Below the pieces are notes generated by a model. It searched no databases and was not told the origin of the DNA. It saw only the letters and a program-made list of their open reading frames with translations. Source: Streptomyces xanthii (GTDB lineage Bacteria; Actinomycetota; Actinomycetes; Streptomycetales; Streptomycetaceae). Taken from it: 64,000 nucleotides of DNA. The stretch lies in the NCBI RefSeq assembly GCF_014621695.1, contig NZ_CP061281.1, positions 4,092,001 through 4,156,000 of the forward strand. The letters are read 5' to 3'. A program made the position numbers and the translations under genes. Shown here piece by piece: positions 5,628 to 36,414 of this stretch (the first letter of the stretch is position 1; each line of letters begins with the position of its first letter).

Positions 5628-5655
5628 GACTCCTTGTGGGGTGCAAGGGTTGTAC
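5628..5655 (-). promoter_or_regulatory. ECF-sigma-like promoter motif, site 1
   Basis: Minus strand GTACAACC followed, 17 bases after the final C, by GTC. The same layout occurs at three other secreted-protein genes in this window. Transcription would start near 5620, leaving a leader of about 105 nt before the FG-GAP gene at 5513. Confidence 0.6.
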
Positions 5656-5675
5656 GGGGGCGGTGACAATTTGTG

Positions 5676-6965
5676 TCAGCCGGTGAACACCGTGGTGGAG
5701 AAGGCGAGTGCGGCGTCGGGAGAGGCGATGGCGGGCTCGGTGACGCCGCGCAGCACCTCGACCGTGTCGGTGTCGCCGTCCGCCGCGGCCCGTTGCAGGA
5801 CGAGGTCGCCCTTGCCGTCGCCGTCGAAGTCCGCGACGGCGACGACGCGGCCCTTCACGTCGGGGCCCGACAGGAGCCGGGTGCCGCCGTGCACCATGCG
5901 GACGGGGTCGCCGGCGTCGCCGGAGACGACGAGGTCGGTGCGGCCGTCGCCGTCGAAGTCGCCCGCGTCCAGGGCCGATCCGGTCGGCGCGGGGACCTTC
6001 ACCGTGCGGCCCGCCGCGCCCTGGGGGCCGTAGAGGGTGATGCCGGTGGTGGTGAGGACCGCCGCGCCGGGGGTCGTGCCGAAGCGGCCGAAGGCCACGT
6101 CCTCGCCCGCGGGGTACTTGGCCCCGGGGCGGCCGGGGCCGGTGGGGCCGCCGCGTACGAGGGCGGAGCGGGCGGTGCCGGTGTGGGCGCGGACGAGGAC
6201 GTCGTCGGCGCCGTCGCCGTCGAGGTCGGAGGCGGGGCCGGCCGGGACGTTGCCGGAGGCCTGGACGAGGCGGGCGGTGCCGCGGGGGGCTCCGGCGCGG
6301 GTGAACGGGCCGGGCAGGAAGGTGAGTCGGCCGCCGCTGGCGTGGATGACGAGGTCGCCGTCGCCGTCGTCGTCGAAGTCGCCGCACACGGGCTGGTCGG
6401 GCCAGTCGTTGCCGAAGCGGGCCTTGTCCGGGATGCGGAGGGTGACGGCCTTGCCGGAGATGCCGGTGGGGGAGCCGAAGAGGATCTGCACGGGGACGGG
6501 GGGCCGGCCCTGGCCGTCGTAGGGCGGGTCGGTGGAGACGACGAGGTCGGAGAAGCCGTCGCGGTTGAGGTCGCAGGCGGCCTCGGAGCTGAACGCGGCC
6601 GGGATCTGGCCCTTCGTCGGGGCGGCGTACTCGGCGGGGGAGAGCAGTTGGCGGGTGGCCGGGTCGGGGCCGTGCTTCTCGCGGCCGTAGACGATGCCGA
6701 TGCCGGGGTCGTCGCCGAGGCCCTTGTGGGCGAGGTCGTCGAGGACGAGGTCGGGGGTGCCGTCGCCGTTGAAGTCGGAGGGGACCTTGCTGCCCTTGCC
6801 CTCGGGGATCGGGCGGGTCTGGGTGTGGGCCTTCTTGGCGGCCAGGGCCGAGGGGGCGGTCTTGCCGGCGGAGGCGCCGTCGCCGCCGGAGCAGGCCGTC
6901 AGGGGCAGGGTGAGGGCGAGCGCCAGTGCTCCGCTGATGCCGAGTGTCCTGGTTCTCGTGTTCAC
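5676..6965 (-). CDS. FG-GAP repeat lipoprotein B
   Basis: 429 residues from GTG 6965. The N-terminus is a lipoprotein signal (NTRTRTLGISGALALALTL, then the lipobox LTAC), so the mature protein is tethered to the outer face of the membrane by a cysteine near residue 24. FG-GAP/VCBS blades follow, with calcium loops such as SDFNGDGTPDLVL, CDLNRDGFSDLVV and GDFDGDGRTDLVV. The open frame runs upstream to 7079, but the lipobox spacing fixes the GTG. Unlike its two neighbours it has no ACAACC-N17-GTC promoter. Ligand unknown. Confidence 0.88.
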   Translation of the reverse strand: MNTRTRTLGISGALALALTLPLTACSGGDGASAGKTAPSALAAKKAHTQTRPIPEGKGSKVPSDFNGDGTPDLVLDDLAHKGLGDDPGIGIVYGREKHGPDPATRQLLSPAEYAAPTKGQIPAAFSSEAACDLNRDGFSDLVVSTDPPYDGQGRPPVPVQILFGSPTGISGKAVTLRIPDKARFGNDWPDQPVCGDFDDDGDGDLVIHASGGRLTFLPGPFTRAGAPRGTARLVQASGNVPAGPASDLDGDGADDVLVRAHTGTARSALVRGGPTGPGRPGAKYPAGEDVAFGRFGTTPGAAVLTTTGITLYGPQGAAGRTVKVPAPTGSALDAGDFDGDGRTDLVVSGDAGDPVRMVHGGTRLLSGPDVKGRVVAVADFDGDGKGDLVLQRAAADGDTDTVEVLRGVTEPAIASPDAALAFSTTVFTG

Positions 6966-7063
6966 CGTGTGTCCCCGCCCGCTTTTTTGTGTGTGTGACC
7001 GCAACATGATGGCTTTTGACGGGCGGGAGGTTAAGGGGCGGGGGGTGGCTACTGCGTCACGTG

Positions 7064-7095
7064 GGGCGGGGCCGCGCATGGGTGCGGCCCCGCCC
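7064..7095 (-). terminator. Terminator after FG-GAP gene C
   Basis: Perfect 12-bp arms (GGGCGGGGCCGC and complement) with an 8-base loop, just downstream of the minus-strand FG-GAP gene ending at 7107. It makes that gene a separate transcription unit from gene B. Confidence 0.75.
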
Positions 7096-7106
7096 GGCGG
7101 TACGGA

Positions 7107-8621
7107 TCAGTCGTCGATGGCGGCTCCGAAGCGGGCGTTCTGGTACGGGGCGTGGAGGGAACCCGCACCGTAGGTCCAGGAGCCGGTCGCGGTGACGCCT
7201 CCCGATCCCGCGGAGAAGACCCAGATCACGCCGTCGTTCGTGTTCTCGCCCGGCGCCGCGGCGAGGAGCCCGAAGCGGCCGTCGTCGTTGGGGTCGGTGA
7301 ACGCGACCTGCGCGCCGAACTTGTCGCCCTTCTCGGCGGTGCCCGGCACGTTCGTGGAGTTCTGGTTGAAGTCCTTCACCCCGGTCGCGGTGAGACCGCC
7401 GGCGGACCCGCGCAGCACCCAGACCGCGCCCGCGTCGGCGACCGTGCCGATGTCCTCGCCGGACGCGCCGACGGCCAGGTCGGCGAAGCCGTCGCCGTTG
7501 GTGTCGCCGACGGAGAGGTCGCTGCCCCAGCCGTCGCCCTTCTCGGCGGTGCCGGGCACTCCGGTGGTGTTCTGCGTCCACCACTCGGGTTCGCCGTAGG
7601 GGCCGGTGGCCGAGCCGTAGTGGACGCCGACGAGGCCGCCGGTCATGGTCTCGCCGCCGTCGTCGGGGCTGTGGGGTTCGCCGGTGATCAGGTCGTCCTT
7701 GCCGTCGCCGTTGACGTCGCCGGAGGCCACGACGGGGCCGCCGCGCACGGCGAGGATGGGCAGCGGGTCGGCGTCGGAGGCGGTGCCGGGCAGGACGTAG
7801 GACCAGCCGTGGCCGGGCTCGGAGCCGACGGAGGTGCCGGAGACGACGAGGTCGGCGAAGCCGTTGGCGTCGTAGTCGCCGGTGGTCAGGGACTTGGGCT
7901 GGATGCCTTCCGGTTCGTCCTGGGCGGCGCGGGCGGCGGGCGCGTTCTGGGTGAAGTTGCGCCGTGAGTCGCGGGCGAGGTTCTTGCCGGTGGTGCGGGC
8001 GGCGGCGGGGGCCGTCTCGTAGCGGTAGATCGAGAGGCCGGCGTCGTCGAGGACGGCGAGGAGGTCGCCGGGGGTCGTGTCGGAGAAGCGTGCGGCGGCG
8101 AGCGCGGAGCCGAAGTGGCGTCCGGCGGCGAGCTCGTCGGACTGCAGCCAGGTGCTGTCGGCGCCGGTGAGGCCTCTGGGTGTGCCCCAGAAGACGACGC
8201 CGCCGCCGGAGTCGGCGAAGGAGGCGAGGTCCTCGCCGGGCGCGCCGACGATCGCGTCGTCGTAGCCGTCGCCGTCGAGGTCGCCGGTGGCGACGGCCTG
8301 GCCGAACGCGTCCCCGGTCTCGGCGCCGCCGGGCACCCCGGTGGTGTCCTGGCTGAACACCGCGGAGCGGGTGGTGCCCATGCCGCCGGAGCCGCCGTAC
8401 TGGACGGTGACGAGTCCGGCGCCGGTGTGCCCGCCGACGGTGGCGCCGGGCGCGCCGACGAGCACGTCGTCGTAGCCGTCGCCGTTGAAGTCGGTGTTGC
8501 GGTCGTTCGCGCGGGTCCCGCCGGGCGTGCCGGCGTACGCGGACGGGGCGGTGGCGATGAACATGCCGCCGAGAAGAAGGAATGACGCCGCTGCGAGGGC
8601 GGCCGAACGGTTCTTGCGCAC
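7107..8621 (-). CDS. Secreted FG-GAP repeat protein C
   Basis: 504 residues from GTG 8621, with AGGAG 8 bases upstream. A Sec signal peptide (RKNRSAALAAASFLLLGG) ends around residue 30 (SAYAG). About seven FG-GAP blades follow, with loops DFNGDGYDDVLVGAPG, GDLDGDGYDDAIVG, GDVNGDGKDDLITG and GDTNGDGFADLAVG. It resembles protein A in architecture and promoter type, so the two are likely co-regulated paralogues. No enzyme domain is evident. Probably a cell-surface or extracellular ligand-binding protein. Confidence 0.9.
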   Translation of the reverse strand: MRKNRSAALAAASFLLLGGMFIATAPSAYAGTPGGTRANDRNTDFNGDGYDDVLVGAPGATVGGHTGAGLVTVQYGGSGGMGTTRSAVFSQDTTGVPGGAETGDAFGQAVATGDLDGDGYDDAIVGAPGEDLASFADSGGGVVFWGTPRGLTGADSTWLQSDELAAGRHFGSALAAARFSDTTPGDLLAVLDDAGLSIYRYETAPAAARTTGKNLARDSRRNFTQNAPAARAAQDEPEGIQPKSLTTGDYDANGFADLVVSGTSVGSEPGHGWSYVLPGTASDADPLPILAVRGGPVVASGDVNGDGKDDLITGEPHSPDDGGETMTGGLVGVHYGSATGPYGEPEWWTQNTTGVPGTAEKGDGWGSDLSVGDTNGDGFADLAVGASGEDIGTVADAGAVWVLRGSAGGLTATGVKDFNQNSTNVPGTAEKGDKFGAQVAFTDPNDDGRFGLLAAAPGENTNDGVIWVFSAGSGGVTATGSWTYGAGSLHAPYQNARFGAAIDD

Positions 8622-8703
8622 GTGCGGCTCCTGGGCTGACGGAGGGCCGGGCAGCGCGGGGGGACGGCCGGAAAGGGCCCGTTCCTTTTCCGACATACCG
8701 TTT

Positions 8704-8731
8704 GACACGGGATCAACCGGAAGGGTTGTAC
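8704..8731 (-). promoter_or_regulatory. ECF-sigma-like promoter motif, site 2
   Basis: Minus strand GTACAACC, then 17 bases, then GTC, the same layout as at 5628-5655. The next three bases CTT also match that site. The predicted leader to GTG 8621 is about 75 nt. Confidence 0.6.
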
Positions 8732-8760
8732 GGCTCTTACAGCGGCTTTCTTACGACAGA

Positions 8761-8792
8761 GAGGGCACCCCGTGAATTCACGGGATGCCCTC
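8761..8792 (-). terminator. Terminator of the Fe-S reductase gene
   Basis: 16-bp arms beginning GAGGGCA with a single C/A mismatch, centred on GAATTC. It lies 50 bp after the stop of the minus-strand Fe-S reductase. Confidence 0.6.
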
Positions 8793-8842
8793 GATGTCGT
8801 ACGGGAGTCCGCCTCAGAGGCTGATGTCTCCCGAGTGGCGGC

Positions 8843-11125
8843 CTACTTGACCGGCTCCGGCTCCGGCGCGTCCTCGGTCTCCGTCTCGCCCGCCGGGTCG
8901 GCCGGCGTCTTGACGGAGTCGAGGAGCAGCTGGGCCACGTCCACGACCTGGATGGACTCCTTGGCCTTGCCGTCGTTCTTCTTGCCGTTGACCGAGTCGG
9001 TCAGCATGACGAGGCAGAACGGGCAGGCGGTGGAGACGATGTCCGGGTTGAGGGACAGGGCCTCGTCGACGCGCTCGTTGTTGATGCGCTTGCCGATGCG
9101 CTCTTCCATCCACATGCGGGCGCCGCCGGCGCCGCAGCAGAAGCCGCGCTCCTTGTGGCGGTGCATCTCCTCGTTGCGCAGGCCCGGGACCTTGCCGATG
9201 ATCTCGCGCGGGGGCGTGTAGATCTTGTTGTGGCGGCCCAGGTAGCAGGGGTCGTGGTACGTGATGATGCCCTCGACCGGGGTCACGGGGATCAGCTTGC
9301 CCTCGTCCACCAGGTGCTGGAGCAGCTGGGTGTGGTGGATGACCTCGTAGTCGCCGCCGATCTGCGGGTACTCGTTGCCGATCGTGTTGAGGCAGTGCGG
9401 GCAGGTGGCGACGATCTTCTTGGCGGTGCGGGGCTTCTTGGACTCCTCCGTCACCTTGCCGTCGTCGTCGTACTCCTCGCCGAAGGCCATGTTGAGCGCC
9501 ATGACGTTCTCCTGGCCGAGCTGCTGGAACAGCGGCTCGTTGCCCAGGCGGCGGGCGGAGTCACCGGTGCACTTCTCGTCGCCGCCCATGATCGCGAACT
9601 TGACGCCCGCGATGTTGAGCAGCTCGGCGAAGGCCTTGGTGGTCTTCTTGGCGCGGTCCTCGAGGGCGCCGGCGCAGCCGACCCAGTAGAGGTACTCGAC
9701 CTCGGTGAGGTCCTCGATGTCCTTGCCGACGACCGGCACCTCGAAGTCGAGCTCCTTGAGCCACTCCAGGCGCTGCTTCTTGGCGAGGCCCCAGGGGTTG
9801 CCCTTCTTCTCCAGGTTCTTGAGCATCGTGCCCGCCTCGGACGGGAACGCGGACTCGATCATCACCTGGTAGCGGCGCATGTCGACGATGTGGTCGATGT
9901 GCTCGATGTCGACCGGGCACTGCTCGACGCAGGCGCCGCAGGTGGTGCAGGACCACAGGACGTCGGGGTCGATGACGCCGTTCTCCTCGGCGGTGCCGAT
10001 GAGGGGGCGCTCGGCCTCGGCGAGGGCGGCCGCGGGAACGTCCTTGAGCTGCTCCTCGGTGGCCTTCTCCTCGCCCTCCATGGTCTTGCCGCCACCCGCG
10101 AGCAGGTAGGGCGCCTTGGCGTGGGCGTGGTCGCGCAGCGACATGATGAGGAGCTTCGGGGAGAGCGGCTTGCCCGTGTTCCAGGCGGGGCACTGCGACT
10201 GGCAGCGGCCGCACTCGGTGCAGGTGGAGAAGTCGAGCAGGCCCTTCCAGGAGAAGTGCTCGATCTGCGAGACGCCGTAGACGTCGTCGTCCGAGGGGTC
10301 CTCGAAGTCGATCGGCTCGCCCTTGGAGGTCATCGGGAGCAGCTCGCCGAGCGAGGTGTCGCCCTTGGCGTCGCGCTTGAACCAGATGTTCGGGAAGGCC
10401 AGGAAGCGGTGCCAGGCGACACCCATGTCGGTCTTCAGGGCGACCGTGATCATCCAGATGAAGGAGGTCGCGATCTTCAGACCGGCGAAGAAGTAGGTGA
10501 GGTTCTGGAGCGTGGAGACGTCCAGGCCCTCCAGCGCGTTCACGACGGGGTACGAGATGAAGAACGACGCCTCGTAGCTGTCGACGTGGTGCTGGGCGCC
10601 TTCGAGGGCGTGCAGCATGAAGATGCAGACGCCGACGATGAGGATGACGGCCTCGACGAAGTACGCCTGGCCGAAGTTGGAGCCGGCGAAGCGGGACTTG
10701 CGGCCCGGCTTGCGCGGGTGGGACAGCTGGCGGATCGCGATGAGGACGACGATGCCCAGGACCGTCATGGTGCCGATGAACTCGACGAAGACGTTGTAGG
10801 GCGCCCACTCACCGATGATCGGCAGCAGCCAGTCCGCCTGGAACAGCTGGCCGATGGCGTTGACGATCGTCAGCAGCAGGGAGAAGAAGCCCACCGCCAC
10901 GAACCAGTGCGCGACACCGACGACGCCCCAGCGGTTCATGCGGGTGTGGCCGAGGAACTCCCTGGCCACGGTGAGGGTGCGCTGTGCGGGATCGTCCGTG
11001 CGGGTGCCCTTGGGCACGTTCTGGCCGAGCCGCATGAAGTTGTAGATCTGCAGGAGAGCACGGACGAACAGCGCCGCGCCCACCACGATCAGAACCAGCG
11101 ACACGATGATCGCGGCGAGTTGCAT
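8843..11125 (-). CDS. Membrane-bound heterodisulfide-reductase-like (Fe-S)-binding oxidoreductase
   Basis: 760 residues from ATG 11125 (GAGGAG ribosome site 6-7 bases upstream). The first about 270 residues contain some six membrane helices. Two ferredoxin-type [4Fe-4S] motifs follow, CTECGRCQSQCP near residue 301 and CTTCGACVEQCP near 395, then two CCG domains with VGCAGALED, CPHC, HDPCYLGRH and GFCCGAGG. This layout matches the actinobacterial (Fe-S)-binding / EtfQO-like oxidoreductases that pass electrons from flavoproteins (for example ETF in fatty-acid oxidation) to membrane quinone. The electron donor is inferred, not shown. An operator-like palindrome precedes it. The last 40 residues are acidic and disordered. 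Confidence 0.88.
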   Translation of the reverse strand: MQLAAIIVSLVLIVVGAALFVRALLQIYNFMRLGQNVPKGTRTDDPAQRTLTVAREFLGHTRMNRWGVVGVAHWFVAVGFFSLLLTIVNAIGQLFQADWLLPIIGEWAPYNVFVEFIGTMTVLGIVVLIAIRQLSHPRKPGRKSRFAGSNFGQAYFVEAVILIVGVCIFMLHALEGAQHHVDSYEASFFISYPVVNALEGLDVSTLQNLTYFFAGLKIATSFIWMITVALKTDMGVAWHRFLAFPNIWFKRDAKGDTSLGELLPMTSKGEPIDFEDPSDDDVYGVSQIEHFSWKGLLDFSTCTECGRCQSQCPAWNTGKPLSPKLLIMSLRDHAHAKAPYLLAGGGKTMEGEEKATEEQLKDVPAAALAEAERPLIGTAEENGVIDPDVLWSCTTCGACVEQCPVDIEHIDHIVDMRRYQVMIESAFPSEAGTMLKNLEKKGNPWGLAKKQRLEWLKELDFEVPVVGKDIEDLTEVEYLYWVGCAGALEDRAKKTTKAFAELLNIAGVKFAIMGGDEKCTGDSARRLGNEPLFQQLGQENVMALNMAFGEEYDDDGKVTEESKKPRTAKKIVATCPHCLNTIGNEYPQIGGDYEVIHHTQLLQHLVDEGKLIPVTPVEGIITYHDPCYLGRHNKIYTPPREIIGKVPGLRNEEMHRHKERGFCCGAGGARMWMEERIGKRINNERVDEALSLNPDIVSTACPFCLVMLTDSVNGKKNDGKAKESIQVVDVAQLLLDSVKTPADPAGETETEDAPEPEPVK

Positions 11126-11177
11126 TGGGGGCTCCTCGGGCCTGCGAGGGGAGGTCTCGTTGTTGACCGACGATTGA

Positions 11178-11191
11178 TTACTAAGCGGTAA
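11178..11191. promoter_or_regulatory. TTAC-N6-GTAA operator-like palindrome
   Basis: TTAC-TAAGCG-GTAA lies 53 bp upstream of the Fe-S reductase start. Sites of the TTAC...GTAA shape are bound by TetR-type regulators of lipid metabolism in actinobacteria, which would suit an ETF-linked reductase. The regulator itself is not in the window. Confidence 0.4.
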
Positions 11192-11424
11192 CTTATGCAG
11201 TCCGTCTGAGACTACCCACTTACCCGGTCGCAATGTAGTCGCCAGGGTCGTGATCTGTGTCGCTGAGGTATCACTCAGTGGGCCCGATGGCGGGCTCGGG
11301 CTGCGCCGCGCGGTAGATCGTGTTATTCGCCCCATATTTGGACATAACGGATTACCTTAAGTCGGTATCCGGACGGGCGAGCCCCCCGGTGTCATCCCGA
11401 TACCGCAATCAGTCGAGGGGCCCG

Positions 11425-12423
11425 ATGGACGCGCTCACCTACCTGGTCACCGGCGGCGCGGGCTTCATCGGCTCGCATCTGACGGACGCCCTCCTCGACC
11501 GGGGCCACACCGTCGTCGTGCTCGACGACCTCTCCACCGGCGACCGCGCCAACCTCGACCGCGCCTGGCCGCAGCGCGGACTGCGCTTCGTACGCGGCTG
11601 CGTCCTCGACGACCGGCTCGTCGACGAGCTCACCGGCCGCTGCGACGTCGTCGTCCACCTCGCCGCCACCGTCGGCGCCCGCGTCGCCGCCCGCCCCCTC
11701 GACTCCTTCACCGCGAACGTGCGCGGCACCGAGACCGTCGTCGCCGCCGCCCTGCGCCACCGCCGCCGGCTGCTGCTCGCCTCCACCTCCGAGATCTACG
11801 GGAAGAACGGCGCGGGCCCGCTCGCCGAGACCGACGACCGGATCCTCGGCCAGACCACCGTCGCCCGCTGGTCGCACTCCACCGCCAAGGCCGTCGACGA
11901 GATCCTCGCCCTCGGCCACCACCGCGAGCACGGACTGCCCGTCACCGTCGCCCGCCTGTTCAACACCGCCGGGCCGCGCCAGGCGCCCGGCTGCGGCGCC
12001 GTCGTGCCCACCTTCGCCGCGCAGGCGCTCGCCGGCCGGCCCCTCACCGTCCACGGCGACGGCACCCAGCGACGCTGCCTTGCCCACGTCGACGACGTCA
12101 CCGACGCGCTGCTGCGGCTCCTGGACCACCCCGGCGCCGTCGGCGAGGTCGTCAACGTCGGCTGCGGCGAGCCGACCGCCGTCGCCGACCTCGCGGGCCT
12201 CGTCGTCGAGCGCGCCGGCTCCCCGTCCGCGCTCCGCTTCGTCCCCCACGACACCGGTGCGCCCGGCGGCGAGGACCCGACCCGGATCCCCGACACCGGC
12301 AAACTGCGCGCACTCACCGGCTGGCGGCCCCGCCGCACCCTCGACGACATCGTCGACGCGGCCCTGGCCGACGCGGCCGCCCGCCGGCCCGCCGCACCGC
12401 TCGCCGCCGCGGCCCGGGGCTGA
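11425..12423 (+). CDS. NAD-dependent epimerase/dehydratase, catalytic Tyr replaced by His
   Basis: 332 residues from ATG 11425 with GAGGGG upstream. It is an extended short-chain dehydrogenase of the UDP-glucose 4-epimerase/dTDP-glucose dehydratase type. The dinucleotide loop TGGAGFIGS is at residues 9-17, and substrate-site STSEIYGKN is near 117. In the catalytic YxxxK motif the tyrosine is histidine: residue 151 is CAC (11875-11877) in SHSTAK, with Lys155 kept. That should cripple classic epimerase chemistry, so the enzyme may be inactive or altered. It heads a compact set of glycan genes separated by 0-1 bp or short overlaps. Likely substrate class: nucleotide sugars. Confidence 0.85.
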   Translation: MDALTYLVTGGAGFIGSHLTDALLDRGHTVVVLDDLSTGDRANLDRAWPQRGLRFVRGCVLDDRLVDELTGRCDVVVHLAATVGARVAARPLDSFTANVRGTETVVAAALRHRRRLLLASTSEIYGKNGAGPLAETDDRILGQTTVARWSHSTAKAVDEILALGHHREHGLPVTVARLFNTAGPRQAPGCGAVVPTFAAQALAGRPLTVHGDGTQRRCLAHVDDVTDALLRLLDHPGAVGEVVNVGCGEPTAVADLAGLVVERAGSPSALRFVPHDTGAPGGEDPTRIPDTGKLRALTGWRPRRTLDDIVDAALADAAARRPAAPLAAAARG

Positions 12424-12424
12424 C

Positions 12425-13408
12425 GTGCTGTACGGGACCGCCGCCGCGTCGGCCGCACTGCTGCTCACCACCCTGCTGACCGCCGCCCTGCGCCCCCTCG
12501 CGCTCGGCCGGCGCCGCCGCCGGGGCGTCGCCCTGCGCGGCGCGCCGCGCGTCGGCGGCCTCGCCCTGCTCACCGTCACCGGGGCGGTCGCCGCCGCCGG
12601 AGCCCTGACCGGCGCCGTGCCGCTCGACCCCGCCACGACCGCGCTGCTCACCGGCGCCACCGTCGTCGGCCTGCTCGGGCTCGCCGACGGGCTGCGGCCC
12701 GGCGGACTCGACGCACGGGTGCGGATCGCCGCCGAGGCCGCGGCCGCCACCGTCGTCGTCCACCTGGCCGGGCTCGGGCTGCTCACCGGGGCCCTCGCCG
12801 TCCTGTGGATCGTCTTCGTCACCCACGCCTTCCGGCAGCTCGACACCTCCGAGGGCGTCATGGGCACCGTCGGCGTCGTCACCGCGCTCGGCCTGTGCGT
12901 GTGCGCGGGCGCCGAAGGGCTCGGCGCGCTCGCGGTGCTCCTCGCGCTGCTCGCCGCCGCGCTCACCGGGCACCTGATGCACGCCTGGCACCCGGCGCGG
13001 GCCCGGGCCGGCGGCTGCGGCGCGCTCTACACGGGGTTCCTCGTCGCGGGCGCCGCGCTCCTGGTCAACGCGGAGCACACCGCGCCCGAACCGGCCGCCT
13101 CGATGTTCGCGCTCACCGCCCTGCCCGCCGCCGACGCCGTGCTCGCCCTGGTGACCCGGCGCCGGGCCCGCCGCCCCGCGCACCTCGCGCACCGGCTGCG
13201 CCGGCTCGGCCTGACCGCGCCCGGCGCGGCCGTCGCCCTGGGCGTCGCGACCGCGCTCACCACCGTCGTCGGCGTGCTGCTGCACCGGGGCGCGCTCGGT
13301 CCCGAGGCCGTGTGGTGGCCGGCCGCCGCACTCGCCCTCGCCGTGCTCCTCGCGCTGCGCGACACGAAGGCTTCCGAGGCGGTACGAACCGAAGGGGTAC
13401 GCACATGA
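12425..13408 (+). CDS. Degenerate WecA/MraY-like polyprenyl-phosphate sugar-1-phosphate transferase
   Basis: 327 residues from GTG 12425, one base after the epimerase stop. About ten hydrophobic segments are present. The order of conserved pieces follows the MraY/WecA family: GAPRVGGLAL near residue 40, GLADGLRPGGLDARVRIAAE near 85, and THAFRQLDTSEGV near 137. The usual Asp-Asp pair of the second motif reads AD-G, and the NAxNxxDGxDG loop has become THAFRQLDTSEG. Several metal and substrate residues are therefore missing and activity is doubtful. The next gene overlaps by ATGA. Confidence 0.65.
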   Translation: MLYGTAAASAALLLTTLLTAALRPLALGRRRRRGVALRGAPRVGGLALLTVTGAVAAAGALTGAVPLDPATTALLTGATVVGLLGLADGLRPGGLDARVRIAAEAAAATVVVHLAGLGLLTGALAVLWIVFVTHAFRQLDTSEGVMGTVGVVTALGLCVCAGAEGLGALAVLLALLAAALTGHLMHAWHPARARAGGCGALYTGFLVAGAALLVNAEHTAPEPAASMFALTALPAADAVLALVTRRRARRPAHLAHRLRRLGLTAPGAAVALGVATALTTVVGVLLHRGALGPEAVWWPAAALALAVLLALRDTKASEAVRTEGVRT

Positions 13409-15076: not shown

Positions 15077-15078
15077 GG

Positions 15079-15250: not shown

Positions 15251-15268
15251 GCCCGCACCCGGCAACGC

Positions 15269-16258: not shown

Positions 16259-16290
16259 TCTGTTGACGGGGAGGGGTGGGGTGGTGCACC

Positions 16291-16311: not shown

Positions 16312-16314
16312 TAG

Positions 16315-18845
<2,531 letters not shown>

Positions 18846-18890
18846 CGTACACACGCGCAACGGAATGAGTGAGGAGGGACGTCGGGGCCG

Positions 18891-20084
18891 ATGAGCACCA
18901 AGGACTTCATCGAGAAGGACTACTACAAGGTCCTCGGCGTCCCCAAGGACGCCACGGACGCCGAGATCAAGAAGGCGTACCGCAAGCTGGCGCGCGAGAA
19001 CCACCCCGACGCCAACAAGGGCAACCCCAAGGCGGAGGAGCGCTTCAAGGAGATCTCCGAGGCGAACGACATCCTCGGCGACGCCAAGAAGCGCAAGGAG
19101 TACGACGAGGCGCGTGCCCTGTTCGGCAACGGCGGGTTCCGTGCGGGACCCGGCGGCGCCGGCGGCGGCACGTTCAACTTCGACCTGGGCGACCTCTTCG
19201 GAGGCGGCGCCCAGGGCCAGAGTCAGGGCCAGGGTGGTTTCGGCGGCGGCATCGGCGATGTCTTCGGCGGCCTGTTCAACCGGGGCGGCGCGGGCACGGG
19301 CACCCGTACCCAGCCGCGCCGGGGCCAGGACATCGAGTCCGAGGTGACGCTCAGCTTCACCGAGGCGGTGGACGGGGCCACGGTCCCGCTGCGGATGTCC
19401 TCGCAGGCCCCCTGCAAGGCGTGCTCCGGCACCGGCGACAAGAACGGCACGCCGCGCGTGTGCCCGACCTGCGTCGGCACCGGGCAGGTCTCGCGGGGCG
19501 GCGGTGGCGGCTTCTCCCTCACCGACCCGTGTGTGGACTGCAAGGGGCGCGGCCTCATCGCCGAGACCCCCTGTGAGGTCTGCAAGGGCTCCGGCCGCGC
19601 CAAGTCCTCCCGCACCATGCAGGTGCGCATCCCCGCCGGGGTCTCCGACGGGCAGCGCATCCGCCTGCGCGGCAAGGGCGCTCCCGGTGAGCGCGGCGGC
19701 CCGGCCGGCGACCTGTACGTCGTCGTCCACGTCGACGCGCACCCGGTGTTCGGCCGCAAGGGCGACAACCTGACGGTGACCGTCCCCGTGACGTTCACCG
19801 AGGCCGCCCTCGGCGGCGAGGTCAAGGTCCCGACCCTCGGCGGCCCGTCCGTCACCCTGAAGCTGCCCCCGGGCACGCCGAACGGGCGGACGATGCGGGC
19901 CCGCGGCAAGGGCGCCGTCCGCAAGGACGGCACGCGCGGAGACCTGCTGGTCACGGTCGAGGTCGCGGTCCCCAAGGACCAGGACCTGACCGACGAGGCC
20001 CGTTCGGCCCTCGAGTCGTACGCCAAGGCGACTGAGGACACGGACGTACGGGCAGAACTGTTCCAGGCGGCGAAGGGAGCCTGA
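18891..20084 (+). CDS. dnaJ: Co-chaperone DnaJ (type I Hsp40)
   Basis: 397 residues from ATG 18891 with GAGGAGG upstream. The J domain carries the HPD motif ([11 protein letters not shown] near residue 38). A Gly/Phe-rich linker follows. The zinc-finger domain has all four CxxCxGxG repeats: [24 protein letters not shown] and CEVCKGSG. The C-terminal peptide-binding domain is complete. It delivers clients to DnaK and stimulates its ATPase. It is 45 bp after grpE and 5 bp before hspR, so one transcript is likely. Confidence 0.98.
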
Positions 20085-20089
20085 GCCAG

Positions 20090-20539
20090 ATGGACGGCCG
20101 TCGACGAAGCAACCCGTACGAACTGACCGACGAGACACCGGTGTACGTGATCTCGGTGGCGGCCCAGCTGTCCGGCCTGCACCCGCAGACCCTGCGCCAG
20201 TACGACCGCCTCGGCCTCGTCTCGCCCGACCGCACGGCCGGGCGGGGCCGCCGCTACTCGGCCCGCGACATCGAACTGCTGCGCACCGTCCAGCAGTTGT
20301 CGCAGCAAGAGGGCATCAACCTGGCCGGCATCAAGCGCATCATCGAGCTGGAGAACCAGGTCGCCGCGCTCCAGTCCCGCGTCGCGGAGCTCTCCGCCGC
20401 GGTGGAGGGCGCCGCGGCGGCCATGCAGCAGCGCGAGGCAGCGGTCCACGCCTCGTACCGCCGCGACCTGGTCCCGTACCAGGAGGTCCAGCAGACCAGC
20501 GCCCTGGTGGTCTGGCGCCCGAAGCGCCCGAAGGACTGA
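20090..20539 (+). CDS. hspR: MerR-family heat-shock repressor HspR
   Basis: 149 residues. The N-terminal winged helix-turn-helix reads VYVISVAAQLSGLHPQTLRQYDRLGLV and then GRGRRYSARDIELL, the MerR pattern; a helical segment (LENQVAALQSRVAELSAAVEG) forms the dimer coil. HspR binds HAIR sites and represses dnaK and clpB operons, working with DnaK. Being the last gene of the operon it controls, it closes an autoregulatory loop. Both HAIR sites at 16238-16311 and the one at 33721-33741 are its expected targets here. Confidence 0.96.
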   Translation: MDGRRRSNPYELTDETPVYVISVAAQLSGLHPQTLRQYDRLGLVSPDRTAGRGRRYSARDIELLRTVQQLSQQEGINLAGIKRIIELENQVAALQSRVAELSAAVEGAAAAMQQREAAVHASYRRDLVPYQEVQQTSALVVWRPKRPKD

Positions 20540-20547
20540 CCCGCGTC

Positions 20548-20590
20548 ACGCCGTGTGGCCCCGGACGACCCGTCCGGGGCCACACGGCGT
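20548..20590 (+). terminator. Terminator of the dnaK operon
   Basis: Two perfect 20-bp arms around a 3-base loop (ACC), starting 9 bp after the hspR stop. No U tract. Confidence 0.88.
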
Positions 20591-20640
20591 TCCGGGTCTC
20601 ACCTCACGTCGTCCCGGACGGCCCGTGCCGACGGCGGTGA

Positions 20641-20654
20641 TAGCGTCCTGGCCA
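20641..20654 (+). promoter_or_regulatory. Probable leaderless promoter
   Basis: TAGCGT is followed by 7 bases and the ATG at 20654, with no ribosome site. Confidence 0.45.
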
Positions 20655-20947
20655 TGCTCCAGGAGAACACCCAGCCTGCCGAGCCGGTCCGCCGGTCGGC
20701 CAAGCGTGTCATCGGCGCCGTCGTCCTGGTTCTCCTCGGGGCGGGCCTGCTGTACGTCGGGATCGACGCGATCGCCGATCCGGCCTCTGTCGTCGCCGAC
20801 TCGGCGAACACGGGGCGCAGCGCGGACACCGAAGCCGAGGCCAAGATCGTGGGCCTGGTGATGTGCCTCTTCGGGATCTCGGTGCTCGGCTTCGGCATCA
20901 GTCTCCTGAGGGCGAACGCGACCCAGGGCCCGAAACCCGGCAGCTGA
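20654..20947 (+). CDS. Small two-helix membrane protein (97 aa)
   Basis: Starts at ATG 20654. Two hydrophobic stretches are clear: residues about 18-40 (VIGAVVLVLLGAGLLYVGIDA) and about 66-85 (IVGLVMCLFGISVLGFGIS), joined by a short acidic and polar loop. Both termini are probably cytoplasmic. I do not recognise a family. It stands alone between the heat-shock operon and the DUF397 gene, with its own probable leaderless promoter. Confidence 0.65.
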   Translation: MLQENTQPAEPVRRSAKRVIGAVVLVLLGAGLLYVGIDAIADPASVVADSANTGRSADTEAEAKIVGLVMCLFGISVLGFGISLLRANATQGPKPGS

Positions 20948-20963
20948 GAAGTCTGCCCCGAGG

Positions 20964-21164
20964 TCACAGACCGCCCAGGAAACCGGCCCAGGCCGTCCCG
21001 CTCACGGCCAGGTGCGGGCCCTCCGCGTTCTTGGAGTCCCGTACGTGGGTCGTGCCAGGGGCGTGGGCCACCTCGACGCAGTCGGGCTCGTCGCCGCCGC
21101 TGCTGTAGGTGCTCTTGAACCAGGCAAGCTCGGTCGGGGAGCCGGCGTTGGTCTCGCGGTTCAT
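20964..21164 (-). CDS. DUF397 protein (66 aa)
   Basis: Starts at ATG 21164, overlapping the stop of the upstream XRE regulator by ATGA. The sequence has the DUF397 pattern: AWFKSTYSSGGDEPDCVEVAHAP, then VRDSKNAEGPHLAVSGTAWAGFL. DUF397 proteins are encoded by dozens of Streptomyces loci next to an XRE/DUF5753 regulator and an RsbW-like ATPase, as here, and at the whiJ and abaA loci influence development or antibiotic production. This copy probably partners the adjacent regulator. Confidence 0.92.
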   Translation of the reverse strand: MNRETNAGSPTELAWFKSTYSSGGDEPDCVEVAHAPGTTHVRDSKNAEGPHLAVSGTAWAGFLGGL

Positions 21165-22009
21165 AGTTCTCCCAGCACTCGCTCGATGAAGGCCAGTGAC
21201 TCCCCTGGCGAGAGGGCCTGAGCTCGGATGATGCCACACCGGAGTTCGATGCTGCGGAGCTGTTTCGGGTCGGAGACCGGGCGGCCGTTGTACAGGCCGT
21301 CACAGCGCCCGATCGCGGTTCCGTCCTCGAACTTCAGCACGTCCATGTTCCCGCTCATCCCCGCGTGATCCTCCCGGTCCGTCGGCATCACCTGGATCTC
21401 GACCGTGCGCAACTGGCCCAGATCCAGGAGATGTTCGAGCTGGCCGCGCAGGACGGTCCGGCCGCCGATGGGGCGGCGCAGGGTCACCTCCTCCTGGATG
21501 AAGCTGAGGGCAGGGGCCGGGTCGCGGTCGAAGACGGACTTGCGGGCCGTGCGGCCGGCCATCGCGCGTTCGATCTGCTCGGACGACAGCGCGGGGCGGC
21601 GCATCGAGAAGAGCGCCTGCGCGTACTCGGGGGTCTGGAGCAGGCCGTGCGGGCTGTGGTTCCAGTACGAGGTCAGTTCGACGGCCTTGGCCTCCAGTGC
21701 CGCGATGTCCCGCACCTTCTTCGGGTACCGGACCTCGGCGACATCCGGCTTCATCGCCTTGAGCAGGCCGTTGGCGCGGAGCACGTCGTCGGCCTTGTCC
21801 AGGAATTCAGGGCGCGGGATCCGCGTACCGGACTCCACTTTGTAGACGATGCCTTCGCCGTAGCCGAGTGCCGCGCCGAGTTCCGAGACCTTGAGGCCGG
21901 CCGCCTCGCGCAGCGCTTTCAGCTGGTGTCCCACCAGGGCGATCACCGCCGCTCCCTGTACGTCACCGGGTTCGATCTCCCAGCCGTCACCGTCCGTCGC
22001 ACCGGTCAT
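21161..22009 (-). CDS. XRE-family regulator with C-terminal DUF5753 (WhiJ-like)
   Basis: 282 residues from ATG 22009; an upstream ATG at 22072 adds an unlikely basic extension. An N-terminal Cro/C1-type helix-turn-helix lies around residues 30-85 (LKALREAAGLKVSELGAALGYGEGIVYKVE). The rest is the DUF5753 ligand-sensing domain, with TPEYAQALF, RRPIGGRTVLRGQLEHLL and FEDGTAIGRCDGLYNGRPV. Such proteins are usually repressors paired with a DUF397 protein. It is coupled to that gene and divergent from an RsbW-like ATPase gene. The target is probably the 22010-22176 intergenic region. Confidence 0.92.
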   Translation of the reverse strand: MTGATDGDGWEIEPGDVQGAAVIALVGHQLKALREAAGLKVSELGAALGYGEGIVYKVESGTRIPRPEFLDKADDVLRANGLLKAMKPDVAEVRYPKKVRDIAALEAKAVELTSYWNHSPHGLLQTPEYAQALFSMRRPALSSEQIERAMAGRTARKSVFDRDPAPALSFIQEEVTLRRPIGGRTVLRGQLEHLLDLGQLRTVEIQVMPTDREDHAGMSGNMDVLKFEDGTAIGRCDGLYNGRPVSDPKQLRSIELRCGIIRAQALSPGESLAFIERVLGEL

Positions 22010-22078
22010 CCGCGCGTACCTCCCGCCCGTTCGGCTCCCCGCCCACGTTCCGTGAACCGCCCTACCCACCAAGGGGCT

Positions 22079-22115
22079 TGGACAGCCTGTACAGCTCTGG
22101 ACAAACGCTGGACAG
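22079..22115. repeat. Three TGGACA direct repeats in a divergent promoter region
   Basis: TGGACA begins at 22079, 22098 and 22109 between the divergent XRE regulator and ATPase genes. The direct-repeat arrangement could be the binding site of the regulator or overlapping -35 elements. Confidence 0.35.
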
Positions 22116-22176
22116 TGACCGTACGTGACAGGCGAGTCGCGGATCAGGGTATGCGGGGGCGGCCACGCTGAGTGAT

Positions 22177-22689
22177 GTGAATCGACAGAACTTCAGCGTC
22201 CAGCTGTCCCCGACCCCGCGCGCGGCCCGCCTCGCCCGCCTCCTCGCCGTCGAACAACTCCGCACCTGGGGCCTCGCCCACGCCCTCGACGACGCGGCGC
22301 ACGTCGTCGCCGAACTCACCGCGAACGCCGTCACGCACGGCCGCCTCCCCGTCCGCGACTTCGTCCTCAGGGTGTACGTGACCGAGGGCGTCCTGCGCAT
22401 CGAGGTCACCGACACCCGCGCCGACCGCCTCCCTCAACTCCGGGTGGCGGAAGGGGAGTCGGGACGCGGGCTCGTCCTCGTCGAGGCGCTCGCCGAGCGG
22501 TGGGGTGTCACCCAGGGGCCATTTCCCCGTAAGACCGTCTGGGCTGAGCTGAGGCTCGGCCGGCCGGGGTGTGGAAACCTGGGCGCCGGTGCCGTGGGCG
22601 GTCAGTACAAGGAACTCTTGGCCGGGGGAAAGGAACCTTTCCAAGCCCCACCTCTCCCCGCCTGCGAGCCGGTTCACCCGCAGTGGTGA
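22177..22689 (+). CDS. RsbW-like ATP-binding protein (HATPase_c_2)
   Basis: 170 residues from GTG 22177. The GHKL ATPase fold is recognised by the N-box VAELTANAVTHGR near residues 41-53, VLRIEVTDTR near 71 and the G-box GESGRGLVLVEALAERWG near 88-105. Anti-sigma kinases of the RsbW/SpoIIAB type share this fold, and orphan copies next to XRE/DUF397 pairs are typical in Streptomyces. The C-terminal 50 residues are not conserved in appearance. A likely role is to modulate a sigma or anti-sigma partner for the adjacent regulator. Confidence 0.88.
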   Translation: MNRQNFSVQLSPTPRAARLARLLAVEQLRTWGLAHALDDAAHVVAELTANAVTHGRLPVRDFVLRVYVTEGVLRIEVTDTRADRLPQLRVAEGESGRGLVLVEALAERWGVTQGPFPRKTVWAELRLGRPGCGNLGAGAVGGQYKELLAGGKEPFQAPPLPACEPVHPQW

Positions 22690-22762
22690 ACCTTGCCAAT
22701 TCCGCTGGCAATTGCCCTAGTTGGTTGCTCTACGCTCACCGCAACAACCCCAGACAGACGTC

Positions 22763-22798
22763 GGCCCCCGACGGGACTAGCGATCCCGGTCGAGGGCC
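22763..22798 (+). promoter_or_regulatory. Structured 5' leader hairpin
   Basis: GGCCCCCGACGGGA pairs with TCCCGGTCGAGGGCC (one mismatch and one bulge) around a 7-base loop, 30 bases before the ATG at 22828. An AAGGA ribosome site follows the hairpin. The leader from the AT-richer TTGGTTGCTCTACGCT region to the ATG is about 90 nt. It may control translation or transcript stability. Confidence 0.45.
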
Positions 22799-22827
22799 TG
22801 ACCATCAAGGAAGATCACGACTTCCCC

Positions 22828-23676
22828 ATGGATACGAGCGACCTTAGCGTGCCCTCGCACGCGCAGTCCCACGATGCCGGAAACGACCGCCCGGACGAGT
22901 GCACCGAAGTGCCCGCCGGCGCCGGGATCGTGCACGAGAACGCCCGGCACGAAAGTCACTTCACGGTCGTCGGCAACCACCTTGCCCAGCATCGCGAACT
23001 CTCCGGCCTCGCCATCGGCCTGGCCGTGCACATCCAGTCGCTGCCGCCCGGCGCCAAGGCGGATGTGCGCACCCTCGCTGCCCGCTTCCCGGAGGGCACC
23101 ACGCGTATCTCGGCGGCGCTGCGGGAGCTCGAAGCGCACGGGTACCTGCGGCGCGAGCGGCACCGGACGCCGGACGGGCGGGTCCGGACGCGCACGGTCT
23201 CCTGCAACCGGCCCGGCGCCCCACCCGCCCAGCCGCGCCGCCGCCCTCCCGCGCCGAGGAAGCCCAGGCCGCTGACGGTCCCGCAGCCGGAGCACCGGCC
23301 CGGCCCCGCGCTCCTTCAGGCCTGCACCGAACTCCTCGCCGGCCTGCACCGCACGGACTCCCGCCTCACCCTCCCGGCCCGGGACATCGAACGCCTCACC
23401 CCGGGCGTCGCGGCCTGGCTGGAACGCGGCCTCACCCCCGCCGCCGTCCGCCACGCCCTCAGTCGGGGACTGCCGGAGGGCGGCCCGATCCACCGCCCCG
23501 CAGCCTTGCTCGCCCACCGCTTGCAGGCCGAACTGCCGTCGTGGTCACGCCCGTTCGATCTTCCGGAGCCGGCCGAGCCACCCGTACGGCATCCCCTCCG
23601 CAACTGCGACGTGTGCGACCACGCCTACCGTGGCCCGGAACCGGGCCGCTGCCCCGGGTGCGTCAGCCGACCTTGA
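22828..23676 (+). CDS. Winged-helix protein with C-terminal zinc ribbon
   Basis: 282 residues from ATG 22828; the frame extends to 22693, but that would run through the leader hairpin. Residues about 85-140 form a winged helix (ALREL EAHGYLRRERHRTPDGRVRTRT), similar to the helix-turn-helix proteins found many times per Streptomyces genome. A Pro/Arg linker leads to a helical C-terminal half (LTPGVAAWLERGLTPAAVRHAL) and a final CDVCDHAY...GRCPGC four-cysteine ribbon. DNA binding is likely; targets are unknown. Its 3' end overlaps the convergent fibronectin gene by 14 bp. Confidence 0.75.
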   Translation: MDTSDLSVPSHAQSHDAGNDRPDECTEVPAGAGIVHENARHESHFTVVGNHLAQHRELSGLAIGLAVHIQSLPPGAKADVRTLAARFPEGTTRISAALRELEAHGYLRRERHRTPDGRVRTRTVSCNRPGAPPAQPRRRPPAPRKPRPLTVPQPEHRPGPALLQACTELLAGLHRTDSRLTLPARDIERLTPGVAAWLERGLTPAAVRHALSRGLPEGGPIHRPAALLAHRLQAELPSWSRPFDLPEPAEPPVRHPLRNCDVCDHAYRGPEPGRCPGCVSRP

Positions 23677-25612
23677 ACGTGATGCGCGCGAGCGAGCCGT
23701 AGCGGCCGTACGTGTCAGCCACCTCGACCTCGACCGTGTAGGTGCCGATGGACGTCGGGCGCCAGGTCAGCGCGTTCCCGGTGGTGGTGCGGGTGAAGGC
23801 GTTCGGGCCGATGACCCGCCAGCGGTAGCCGCCCGGCGTGTGTCCCGGCTGCGCTGCCGGGGTCGCCGTGACCGTGACGTCCTGGCCGAAGCCGTGGCCC
23901 GCGCAGTCGTTGGCGGTGCACTCGGTGAACGGGGCGGACAGAGTGAGGGTCGCGGCCGCGGGCGCCTCCGGGGTGGCCGGGGTGAGGCGGTCCGCCGCGG
24001 TGGTCGGGGACGGGGCCGAGTCGAGGCCGTTCTGGTCGACGGTGGTCACGTAGTACCAGGCCTTGCCCGCGGTGGCCGTCGTGTCGTCGAAGACCTGGGC
24101 GGTGACCGGGCGTTCCGTCAGCAGGGTCCAGGCGCCGTTCGGGTCGGTGCGGCGGTAGATGCGGTAGCCCTGGTCGTTGAGGGTCCAGGGGATGGCGAGC
24201 CGGGTGGCGCTGTCCATCGGGGTCGCGGTCGGGGCGCCGGGCGCGGCCAGGGCGGAGGCCGCGGGGCGCGTGGCCGTGGCGGTCGCGGAGACCGGCGAGA
24301 CGTTGCCCGAGTGGTCGACGGCGTACACGCGGTACGACGTGGGGACACCGGCGGTCGCCGTCGCGTCCAGGTAGGAGGTGCCGAGGACGATGCGCGGGCC
24401 GCCGCCGTCGTTGCTCTCGGGGGTCGACACCCACACCTCGTAGTGTGCGGTGTCCTCCGTGGCCGCCTGCCAGCGGACGTTGTTGCCCGCGGTCGTGCCG
24501 TCCGCCGTCACGTCCTGCACCTGGGAGGGCGGGGTGACGTCGGGCTCGCCGGTGTCGGCGACCGCGGACGGGGCGGAGACGTTGCCCGCGGCGTCCCGGG
24601 CGACCACCTGGTAGTACCAGCGGGGGGTGGTGGAGAACGACGGCGTGTCACGGAACGACGTGTCGGTCAGCCATCCCGAGACGGCGGTGTAGGTCCCGTC
24701 GGCGGCGGCCGCCCGCCGCACCTGGTAGCCGGTGGCACCGGCCGAGGTCTGCCACTTCGCCGTGACGCCGCCCTCGGACCGCTCGACCGCGAGGCCGGCG
24801 GGAGCGGCGGGCGCGGTCTTGTCGGCCGTGGTGACGGCGAGTTCGGCGGAGGCGGCGGAACGGTTGCCCGCCTTGTCGACGGCCCGGATCCGGTACTGGT
24901 ACGCGGCGCCGGTGGCCGGCGGGTTGTCGGTGTACGGGGAGGACGTGGTCGTCGCCAGGTACTCCCACGTGGTCGCGGCCGCCGCCTTGCGGTAGACGCG
25001 GTAGTTCGCCAGGTCCATCTCGACGTTCTTGGCCCAGGACAGCGTGGCCTTGCGCGTGCCGTTGTCGTAGACGGCCTTGAATCCGGCCGGGGCGAGCGGC
25101 GCCGTCTTGTCGTACGTGGCCGAAGTGCGGGGCACGTACGTGTACTTGACCTGTGCGGTGCCGGTCCAGTTCACGTAGTCGATGCGGAGGGTGTGCCGGC
25201 CCTTGGGGACGGTCAGGTTCACGGTCTTCGCGTGTGACGAGCCGGTGTTGGACCACAGGTCGATCTTGCGGCTGCCGTCCAGGTAGACGCGGATGCCGTC
25301 GTAGCCGGAGGCGGCGAAGGTGAACGGGCCGCCGGAGCCGAAGTCGCGGGTGACGGACCAGCGCACGCCGAAGTTGTTCGTGGGCAGGCCGGTGGCCGGG
25401 GCGCCGGTGCCCCATTTCTGGTCGATCGCCGAGTCGCAGTCGGTCTTCTTCGGCGTACCGGAGAACGTGGTGTTGGCGAAGAACTCCCGCTTGAAGACGG
25501 GCGAGGCGCAGGTGACGGTTGCGGCGCCCGCGGCCGGGACGGCGGCGCACAGCAGGCCGGCGGTGGTGGCTGCCACCAGGAGTGCGGCACCGAGGGGTCT
25601 GGCGGATGTCAT
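23663..25612 (-). CDS. Secreted PA14-like / fibronectin type III protein 1
   Basis: 649 residues from ATG 25612 with AGGA 5 bases upstream. Signal peptide residues 1-31 end at AGAA. A PA14-like lectin domain follows (residues about 35-165, with TNNFGVRWSVTRDFGSGGPF, YDGIRVYLDG and HTLRIDYVNW). Four to five fibronectin type III modules come next, each with patterns such as YRVYR and YQYRIRAVDKAGNRSAAS, and a C-terminal PKD-like segment ends in SLARITFKVG. No catalytic domain is seen, so a role in binding surface or extracellular glycans is likely. It is co-transcribed with the small secreted protein upstream and is a paralogue of the gene at 26639. Confidence 0.88.
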   Translation of the reverse strand: MTSARPLGAALLVAATTAGLLCAAVPAAGAATVTCASPVFKREFFANTTFSGTPKKTDCDSAIDQKWGTGAPATGLPTNNFGVRWSVTRDFGSGGPFTFAASGYDGIRVYLDGSRKIDLWSNTGSSHAKTVNLTVPKGRHTLRIDYVNWTGTAQVKYTYVPRTSATYDKTAPLAPAGFKAVYDNGTRKATLSWAKNVEMDLANYRVYRKAAAATTWEYLATTTSSPYTDNPPATGAAYQYRIRAVDKAGNRSAASAELAVTTADKTAPAAPAGLAVERSEGGVTAKWQTSAGATGYQVRRAAAADGTYTAVSGWLTDTSFRDTPSFSTTPRWYYQVVARDAAGNVSAPSAVADTGEPDVTPPSQVQDVTADGTTAGNNVRWQAATEDTAHYEVWVSTPESNDGGGPRIVLGTSYLDATATAGVPTSYRVYAVDHSGNVSPVSATATATRPAASALAAPGAPTATPMDSATRLAIPWTLNDQGYRIYRRTDPNGAWTLLTERPVTAQVFDDTTATAGKAWYYVTTVDQNGLDSAPSPTTAADRLTPATPEAPAAATLTLSAPFTECTANDCAGHGFGQDVTVTATPAAQPGHTPGGYRWRVIGPNAFTRTTTGNALTWRPTSIGTYTVEVEVADTYGRYGSLARITFKVG

Positions 25613-25672
25613 GGCGGTCCTGAGAGGAGTGGAGTTCCTGAAGGGAAGGGAAGGGAGGGGGAAGAGCGGGGG

Positions 25673-26443
25673 CTATTTCAGCGCCACGCTGTCGCCCGTG
25701 GCCGTCACCGGGCTCGTCGTGCCCGAGCCCGCGAACTTCCAGCGCCAGGTGCCGGACGCGTTCGCCGTGAGCGTCGTCTTCAGCTTGCCCGCGCTGTCCG
25801 TGGTCGCGGACTTGACCGTGGTGTAGGTCGAGGTGCCGGACTTCTTGAACTGGAGGGAGACGGACTTGCCTGCGTAGCCCCAGTAGGCGTTGGAGTCCCA
25901 GCTGGCGCGGGTCAGGGTGCCGGTCACCGTCAGGGTGCGGCCCTTGACCACCGGTTCGGGGGTGGCCTGGGTGGCGGTGAGCTTGGCGTAGCGCTTGATC
26001 CTGACCGTCTTGCTGGTGTCCAGGGTGTAGAAGTCCTGGTCGTTCGCCGCCGCCTCGGCGTCGAGGTGCCAGGTGCCCGCGTCGGCGTTGCGCAGGTCCG
26101 CGTAGTCGTCGGAGGCGTTCGCGTCGAAGGAGTACTTCCAGGCGCACTTCATCGTCGTGGACGTGGGGCGGGTGCAGGACGCGGAGTAGGGGAACGCGAT
26201 GCGGCCCGCGGGGCTGACCAGCTTGCCGCCGTAGATGCCCTTGATCCCCGAGCCGTCCTTGGCGGTCGCCGTCACGGTCAGGTACTGGGTGGCGCTGACG
26301 CCGACGTTCACCGTCGACTTGCTGAACGTGACCGACGTGAACGTCGTGTCCCCCTTGTGGGTGTCCGCCTGCGCGGCGGGCGTGAGGAAGGGGAGCAGCA
26401 CGAGGGCGCCGCCCGCGACGGTGGCGGCCGTACGGATTCGCAT
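25673..26443 (-). CDS. Secreted protein of unknown family (256 aa)
   Basis: Starts at ATG 26443. A signal peptide ([19 protein letters not shown], cleavage after AQA near residue 26) is clear. The mature part is all-beta in character, rich in Thr, Ser and Ala, with two probable immunoglobulin-like halves; one cysteine pair (SCTRP and MKCAW) could form a disulfide. I do not recognise a named family. It is the first gene of a two-gene operon with the PA14/fibronectin protein (60 bp gap) and is driven by ECF-type promoter site 3. Confidence 0.75.
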   Translation of the reverse strand: MRIRTAATVAGGALVLLPFLTPAAQADTHKGDTTFTSVTFSKSTVNVGVSATQYLTVTATAKDGSGIKGIYGGKLVSPAGRIAFPYSASCTRPTSTTMKCAWKYSFDANASDDYADLRNADAGTWHLDAEAAANDQDFYTLDTSKTVRIKRYAKLTATQATPEPVVKGRTLTVTGTLTRASWDSNAYWGYAGKSVSLQFKKSGTSTYTTVKSATTDSAGKLKTTLTANASGTWRWKFAGSGTTSPVTATGDSVALK

Positions 26444-26497
26444 GGTTCTCCAGGCAGAACGGTCCGGATCTTCGACGCTTCGTCCGGGCGTGGAGAA

Positions 26498-26525
26498 GAC
26501 ACGTGGAGGGTTCGCTTGGTTGTAC
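26498..26525 (-). promoter_or_regulatory. ECF-sigma-like promoter motif, site 3
   Basis: Minus strand GTACAACC, 17 bases, GTC. Predicted start about 50 nt before the ATG at 26443. It is back to back with site 4, with 18 bp between their GTACAACC boxes. Confidence 0.6.
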
Positions 26526-26543
26526 GGCGGGTGTACGGGCTTC

Positions 26544-26571
26544 GTACAACCTTCGGGGCAGGTCAGGGGTC
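26544..26571 (+). promoter_or_regulatory. ECF-sigma-like promoter motif, site 4
   Basis: Plus strand GTACAACC, 17 bases, GTC, driving the PA14/fibronectin gene that starts at 26639 after a leader of about 60 nt. With site 3 it makes one compact divergent promoter for both secreted units. Confidence 0.6.

Positions 26572-33816: not shown

Positions 33817-36414
<2,598 letters not shown>

Follow-up and report, generated by a model that had tools for sequence, protein, structure and literature searches.

A putative ECF sigma factor promoter in front of secreted-protein genes of Streptomyces

Related ECF systems

Autoregulation is typical of ECF sigma factors, and the activity of one of them, sigma U of Streptomyces coelicolor, changes the secretome. 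The promoter of Mycobacterium tuberculosis SigL has TGAACC as -35 and CGTGTC as -10, which is similar to the motif described here, GTACAACC-N17-GTC; as a -35, GTACAACC departs from the consensus for sigma E. From the gene order ask (aspartokinase)-asd-sigma, the sigma gene studied here is presumably the ortholog of S. coelicolor SCO3613. SCO2639 was also considered as counterpart and rejected, as the ask-asd neighbourhood fits SCO3613 better. Sigma U, which we take to be SCO2954, is thus a different gene.

The TIGR02983 ECF sigma factors of Streptomyces belong to the same NCBI subfamily as the sigma protein described below and share with it the layout of an AAC-type -35 and a GTC-type -10. Sigma E and SigQ are assigned to ECF39 in PMC8999054, and PMC6767563 reports, for sigma E of S. 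coelicolor, that ECF regulons overlap. In contrast to that of sigma E, the gene studied here lies elsewhere, behind ask-asd, and is accompanied by an overlapping gene for a partner protein with one transmembrane (TM) helix. The best match among solved structures was M. tuberculosis SigL (E 2.9e-9, a weak similarity), from which the present system differs in that the partner matched none of the known anti-sigma families. SCO3613 is listed as a sigma factor in PMC12175524 and PMC9739823; a limited literature search yielded no regulon or promoter for this gene, which was mentioned in passing only.

The motif and the genes behind it

The window, i.e. the whole stretch of 64,000 nt that was analysed, corresponds to G000:C1:4092001-4156000 of the 8.35 Mb genome of Streptomyces xanthii. 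An exact search for GTACAACC-N16..18-GTC gave four matches, every one of them with N17; gaps of 16 and 18 bases added no sites, and shuffled windows contained 0.01 sites on average and 1 at most (100 shuffles). The four sites with an equal 17-base gap that had been claimed in an earlier note on this DNA were thus confirmed, both in their coordinates and in their spacing (Table 1). The distances from GTC to the gene start were ~114 (78 from an upstream start), 82, 54 and 67 bp, so that the claimed range of 45-110 bp holds for the last three and fails for the first, unless its upstream start is used. Sites 3 and 4 point away from each other, and 18 bp separate their adjacent -35 boxes.

Table 1. 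Sites with GTACAACC-N17-GTC, the genes behind them, further targets in the same genome and the sigma gene. Positions refer to the window, except for the sigma gene.
Feature	Position	Strand	Remarks
FG-GAP repeat protein 1	4041..5513	-	490 aa, signal peptide
Predicted ECF promoter of FG-GAP gene 1	5628..5655	-	GTACAACC -35, N17, GTC -10; predicted start ~5619; orthologs compared
FG-GAP repeat lipoprotein	5676..6965	-	429 aa, without own motif
FG-GAP repeat protein 2	7107..8621	-	GTG start, signal peptide
Predicted ECF promoter of FG-GAP gene 2	8704..8731	-	Predicted start ~8695; exact before homologs L101-L111
PA14 domain protein 1	23663..25612	-	649 aa, signal peptide; gene 61 bp downstream of that for the 256-aa protein, without own motif
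256-aa exported protein	25673..26443	-	Prediction of mainly beta strands (low-confidence model)
Predicted ECF promoter shared by the genes for the 256-aa protein and PA14 domain protein 1	26498..26525	-	Predicted start ~26489
Predicted ECF promoter of PA14 gene 2	26544..26571	+	Predicted start ~26580
PA14 domain protein 2	26639..28096	+	485 aa as called, signal peptide
Target L006, DUF5707-like			Relative of the 256-aa protein; Pfam match just below cut-off
Target L007			D-Ala-D-Ala carboxypeptidase
Target L013			At least 476 aa (locus ends before stop)
Target L020			149 aa
Sigma gene	G000:C1:4176601-4177278		20.6 kb past the window end

The fixed spacing was also seen outside the window. Among 60 intergenic GTACAACC octamers (80 loci of named genomes, mostly Streptomyces), 53 had GTC at exactly 17 bases, and no alternative spacing between 8 and 26 occurred more than 4 times. 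An AAC-type -35 and a GTC-type -10 are thus found at one fixed spacing, as in ECF promoters. Alignment of the sites showed a preference for C before GTACAACC, for T two bases after it and for T after GTC, and little signal in the spacer; because the logo was built from exact matches, its boxes are fixed by construction and only the flanking and spacer columns are informative. The motif is defined by only 11 fixed bases and its function as a promoter is a prediction, which leaves room for reading it as an operator for a DNA-binding regulator in front of secreted-protein genes. We regard this as very unlikely, given that an AAC-type and a GTC-type box share a strand and are separated by a constant distance, that no palindrome or direct repeat was seen in the motif, and that a conserved GTG follows GTC by 8 nt at the sigma gene, as a leaderless transcript needs. 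If the sites are promoters, transcription would start ~9 nt after GTC.

The proteins behind the four sites all look exported by inspection, in agreement with the signal peptides that had been claimed for them. A loose signal-peptide script recognized 4/4 and a strict one 3/4, the latter missing FG-GAP protein 2 because its start was called too late; translated from the GTG at 8621, this protein begins VRKNRSAALAAASFLLLGG. The gene for the FG-GAP lipoprotein is possibly transcribed by read-through from the FG-GAP 2 promoter. The 256-aa protein is a paralog of the DUF5707-like target L006, and its AlphaFold2 model, computed for the protein alone, was too poor for a fold search (mean pLDDT 48). 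The window was said to lack a sigma gene, which is correct for genes with a Sigma70_r2 domain. Elsewhere in the window, at 16333-20539 and 33799-36414, the beginnings of the encoded proteins look like those of dnaK-grpE-dnaJ-hspR and clpB.

Exported proteins as predicted targets across genomes

In the complete genome, GTACAACC-N16-18-GTC occurred 21 times versus 7 times for the reversed pattern, and with N17 alone the counts were 18 and 1; the six relatives, picked from the best sigma matches, had 84 N17 matches versus 7. The reversed control underestimates what chance would yield: TAC-AAC reads as a Tyr-Asn codon pair, and counts above this control also occur in several genomes from other genera. 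Class-wide counts of the pattern were rejected as a test for the latter reason and because they are dominated by coding matches.

Six of the 18 N17 matches in the own genome lie inside genes and 12 are intergenic; 9 of the latter have a downstream gene within 320 bp (simple gene caller), which encodes an exported-looking protein in eight cases and a sigma factor in one (L012). The exported targets comprise FG-GAP, PA14 and Ig-like proteins and a D-Ala-D-Ala carboxypeptidase. By the strict script 7/8 of these genes had a signal peptide, as compared to 24/176 genes of the same genome (Fisher p 1.5e-5); in the six relatives it was 22/31 downstream genes versus 278/1156 genes from loci of the named genomes (p 8e-8). 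In both comparisons the genes are not all independent, as families and orthologs recur. The strict rule rejects some exported-looking proteins (L009, L252). The loose rule was discarded as a statistic, since 178/422 background genes passed a rule of this type and four sigma genes were flagged as well.

Over the seven genomes together, 102 N17 matches were found, of which 66 were called intergenic and 36 lie inside called genes. A downstream gene was present for 47 of the intergenic matches, seven times the sigma gene, and 26/66 had no exported-protein call downstream. Four "intergenic" matches without a downstream gene (L246, L253, L273, L284) are probably coding stretches missed by the gene caller, because the conserved stretch falls in a called gene in L014. 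Reading of the sequences gave, as other targets in the relatives, FG-GAP, Ig-like, PA14-like, L,D-transpeptidase-like and LytR-like proteins and small membrane proteins. One of the small membrane proteins, whose sequence starts with MHGHGY or MQGHGY, is preceded in four relatives (L235, L264, L269, L280) by a strongly conserved site, GTACAACC..GTCGGCCTATACG.

The likeness of the sites might also stem from duplication of genes together with their upstream regions, or from chance matches in coding sequence: the 256-aa protein is related to the L006 target, FG-GAP genes are repeated, and more than a third of the matches (the 36 of 102) fall inside called genes. Such an origin is hardly credible. 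It was already disfavoured by the shuffles, the spacer comparison and the fixed spacing; the spacers differ between sites and share little signal, and the motif is common to unrelated families (FG-GAP, PA14, carboxypeptidase, sigma factor).

Upstream of FG-GAP homologs (79 of 80 loci, one being too short) the motif was exact in 35/79, had one mismatch in 10 and two or more in 34; the reversed control never had fewer than two. For homologs of the 256-aa protein the corresponding numbers were 10/30, 8 and 12, with never fewer than three for the reversed control. Some of the FG-GAP homologs (L113-L115, L117-L121, L124) have upstream (C/T)CACAAC(T/C)-N17-(mostly CGTGTC), i.e. the same spacing with an altered -35, and these variant sites are possibly read by a related sigma factor. 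In relatives of the 256-aa protein (L188, L189, L191, L192, L201, L206, L207, L210), the triplet 17 bases after GTACAACC is ATC in place of GTC; these sites often share a stretch like CGTCACG(A/G)ATC, which may be a variant -10 or a second element.

Of the six target loci in the own genome, which were grouped by hand, four are no more than 200 kb away from the sigma gene (binomial p 9e-5), and ~190 kb of the chromosome (G000:C1:3996859-4188923) hold these four and the sigma gene itself. In several relatives targets were also observed within ~120 kb of the sigma gene.

The sigma gene, its own predicted promoter and its partner

The own genome has 45 Sigma70_r2 genes (46 matches, one gene being split in two), and in just one of the 45 was the exact motif present within 900 bp upstream of the domain. 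The encoded protein scored above the TIGR02983 (SigE family) cut-off (187.1 versus 141.55 bits), and its Sigma70_r2 and Sigma70_r4_2 domains were above cut-off as well. A GTG codon begins 8 nt after the GTC of the site. An ortholog was found in 100/101 Streptomyces genomes, the own genome included (best E 5e-73 or lower), the exception being a genome that is 79% complete, and in 80/80 genomes of the order (E up to 1e-40).

The upstream region was inspected for sigma loci from part of the genomes with an ortholog. The motif was exact at 54/55 loci, with one mismatch at the remaining one (L084), and GTG stood at +8 in 54/54 of the exact cases; with L335-L338 and L339-L341, which are exact too, the count is 61/62 distinct Streptomyces sigma loci. 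All 15 orthologs from two other families had GTACAAC(C/T/G)-N17-GTC (equal to GTACAAC-N18-GTC). Among 15 more distant homologs of the class, ACAAC-N18-GTC was present shortly before the start codon in 9/10 from family f20 and 2/5 others. No site was seen upstream of a second homolog, 47% identical, in one genome (L334 in G101). Because the conserved GTG sits 8 nt after GTC, the sigma mRNA is probably leaderless. The presence and conservation of the site point to an autoregulated operon, which the sigma factor would itself read.

The motif, its exact spacing and conservation, its position before exported-protein genes and its occurrence at a single sigma gene together suggest that GTACAACC-N17-GTC combines the -35 and -10 elements recognised by a single autoregulated TIGR02983 ECF sigma factor, the product of the gene at 4176601-4177278, which would control a regulon of secreted proteins; we assign this reading a probability of about 0.85. 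Points that count against it are the 36 matches inside called genes, the 26 intergenic ones without an exported-protein call, the homologs with two or more mismatches, the leniency of the reversed control, and the failure to find a secreted-protein regulon in the other families examined or a known anti-sigma domain in the partner. The earlier note's proposal of an ECF regulon dedicated to surface and secreted proteins is supported by the enrichment of exported-protein genes, by the single motif-bearing sigma gene and by the four target loci near that gene. Autoregulation of the sigma gene does not prove that the same factor reads the other sites. These could be ECF promoters read mainly by another ECF sigma factor, in a cascade with the sigma gene as one of its targets, or by several sigma factors with overlapping specificity; the regulon overlap described for sigma E and the presence of 45 Sigma70_r2 genes in the genome speak for such an arrangement. 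It is nevertheless improbable, as the exact motif was absent from the 900 bp preceding the region-2 match of every other sigma gene, the sole sigma gene observed downstream of a site in the six relatives is the ortholog of the present one, and the sigma gene keeps its site even in families without another clear intergenic target.

The start of the partner gene overlaps the sigma stop codon (ATGA-type) in 52/55 loci; in the remaining three the script picked another frame. The partner has a conserved arginine-rich stretch (DELALRR...AVPARRARKRQ), followed by a single hydrophobic helix and by an outer portion in which cysteines are conserved. Its gene overlap, cytoplasmic segment, single TM helix and outer domain correspond to the layout of a membrane anti-sigma factor. 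The Pfam matches of 28 partners (E up to 1) included no anti-sigma family, such as the zinc anti-sigma domain, and a weak DUF4232 match was found in 1/28. Because of gene position and layout, the one-TM partner is probably an anti-sigma factor.

Searches with exact patterns found no secreted-protein regulon in families f2 and f3 (29/38 listed places examined, 7 intergenic) or in family f20 (11/12 places examined, 3 intergenic); altered target sites would be missed by such patterns. The intergenic sites belonged to the sigma gene in three cases in f2/f3, where two others precede genes not called exported and two have no downstream gene, and in all three cases in f20. Because the intergenic sites with a recognisable target in the other families examined are mainly those of the sigma gene itself, the regulon of secreted proteins appears to have expanded in Streptomyces.

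For a secreted-protein regulon under this sigma factor the most likely sequence of events is the following. The partner would keep the sigma factor inhibited at the membrane, and an external signal would set it free. The freed sigma factor would first amplify its own, probably leaderless, operon of sigma and one-TM partner genes and would then switch on dispersed Streptomyces genes for FG-GAP, PA14 and Ig-like/DUF5707-type proteins and some cell-wall enzymes, the products of which may build or remodel the cell surface. As a more tentative proposal, sigma factor and partner may constitute an undescribed kind of ECF/anti-sigma pair, in which the sigma factor is bound by the short arginine-rich juxtamembrane helix while the outer domain, with its conserved cysteines, senses the state of the cell surface. 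The pair would be old and at first mainly self-regulating from a leaderless mRNA, and Streptomyces would have made it a switch for an extracellular coat of FG-GAP, PA14 and Ig-like proteins.

Overall, a widely conserved and little-studied sigma factor gains a likely job, which can be tested directly thanks to a sharp promoter, a list of targets and predicted start sites. The promoter may find use as a tool or marker for studies of secretion in Streptomyces, and the regulon would tie together secreted FG-GAP, PA14 and Ig-like families that have no assigned role.
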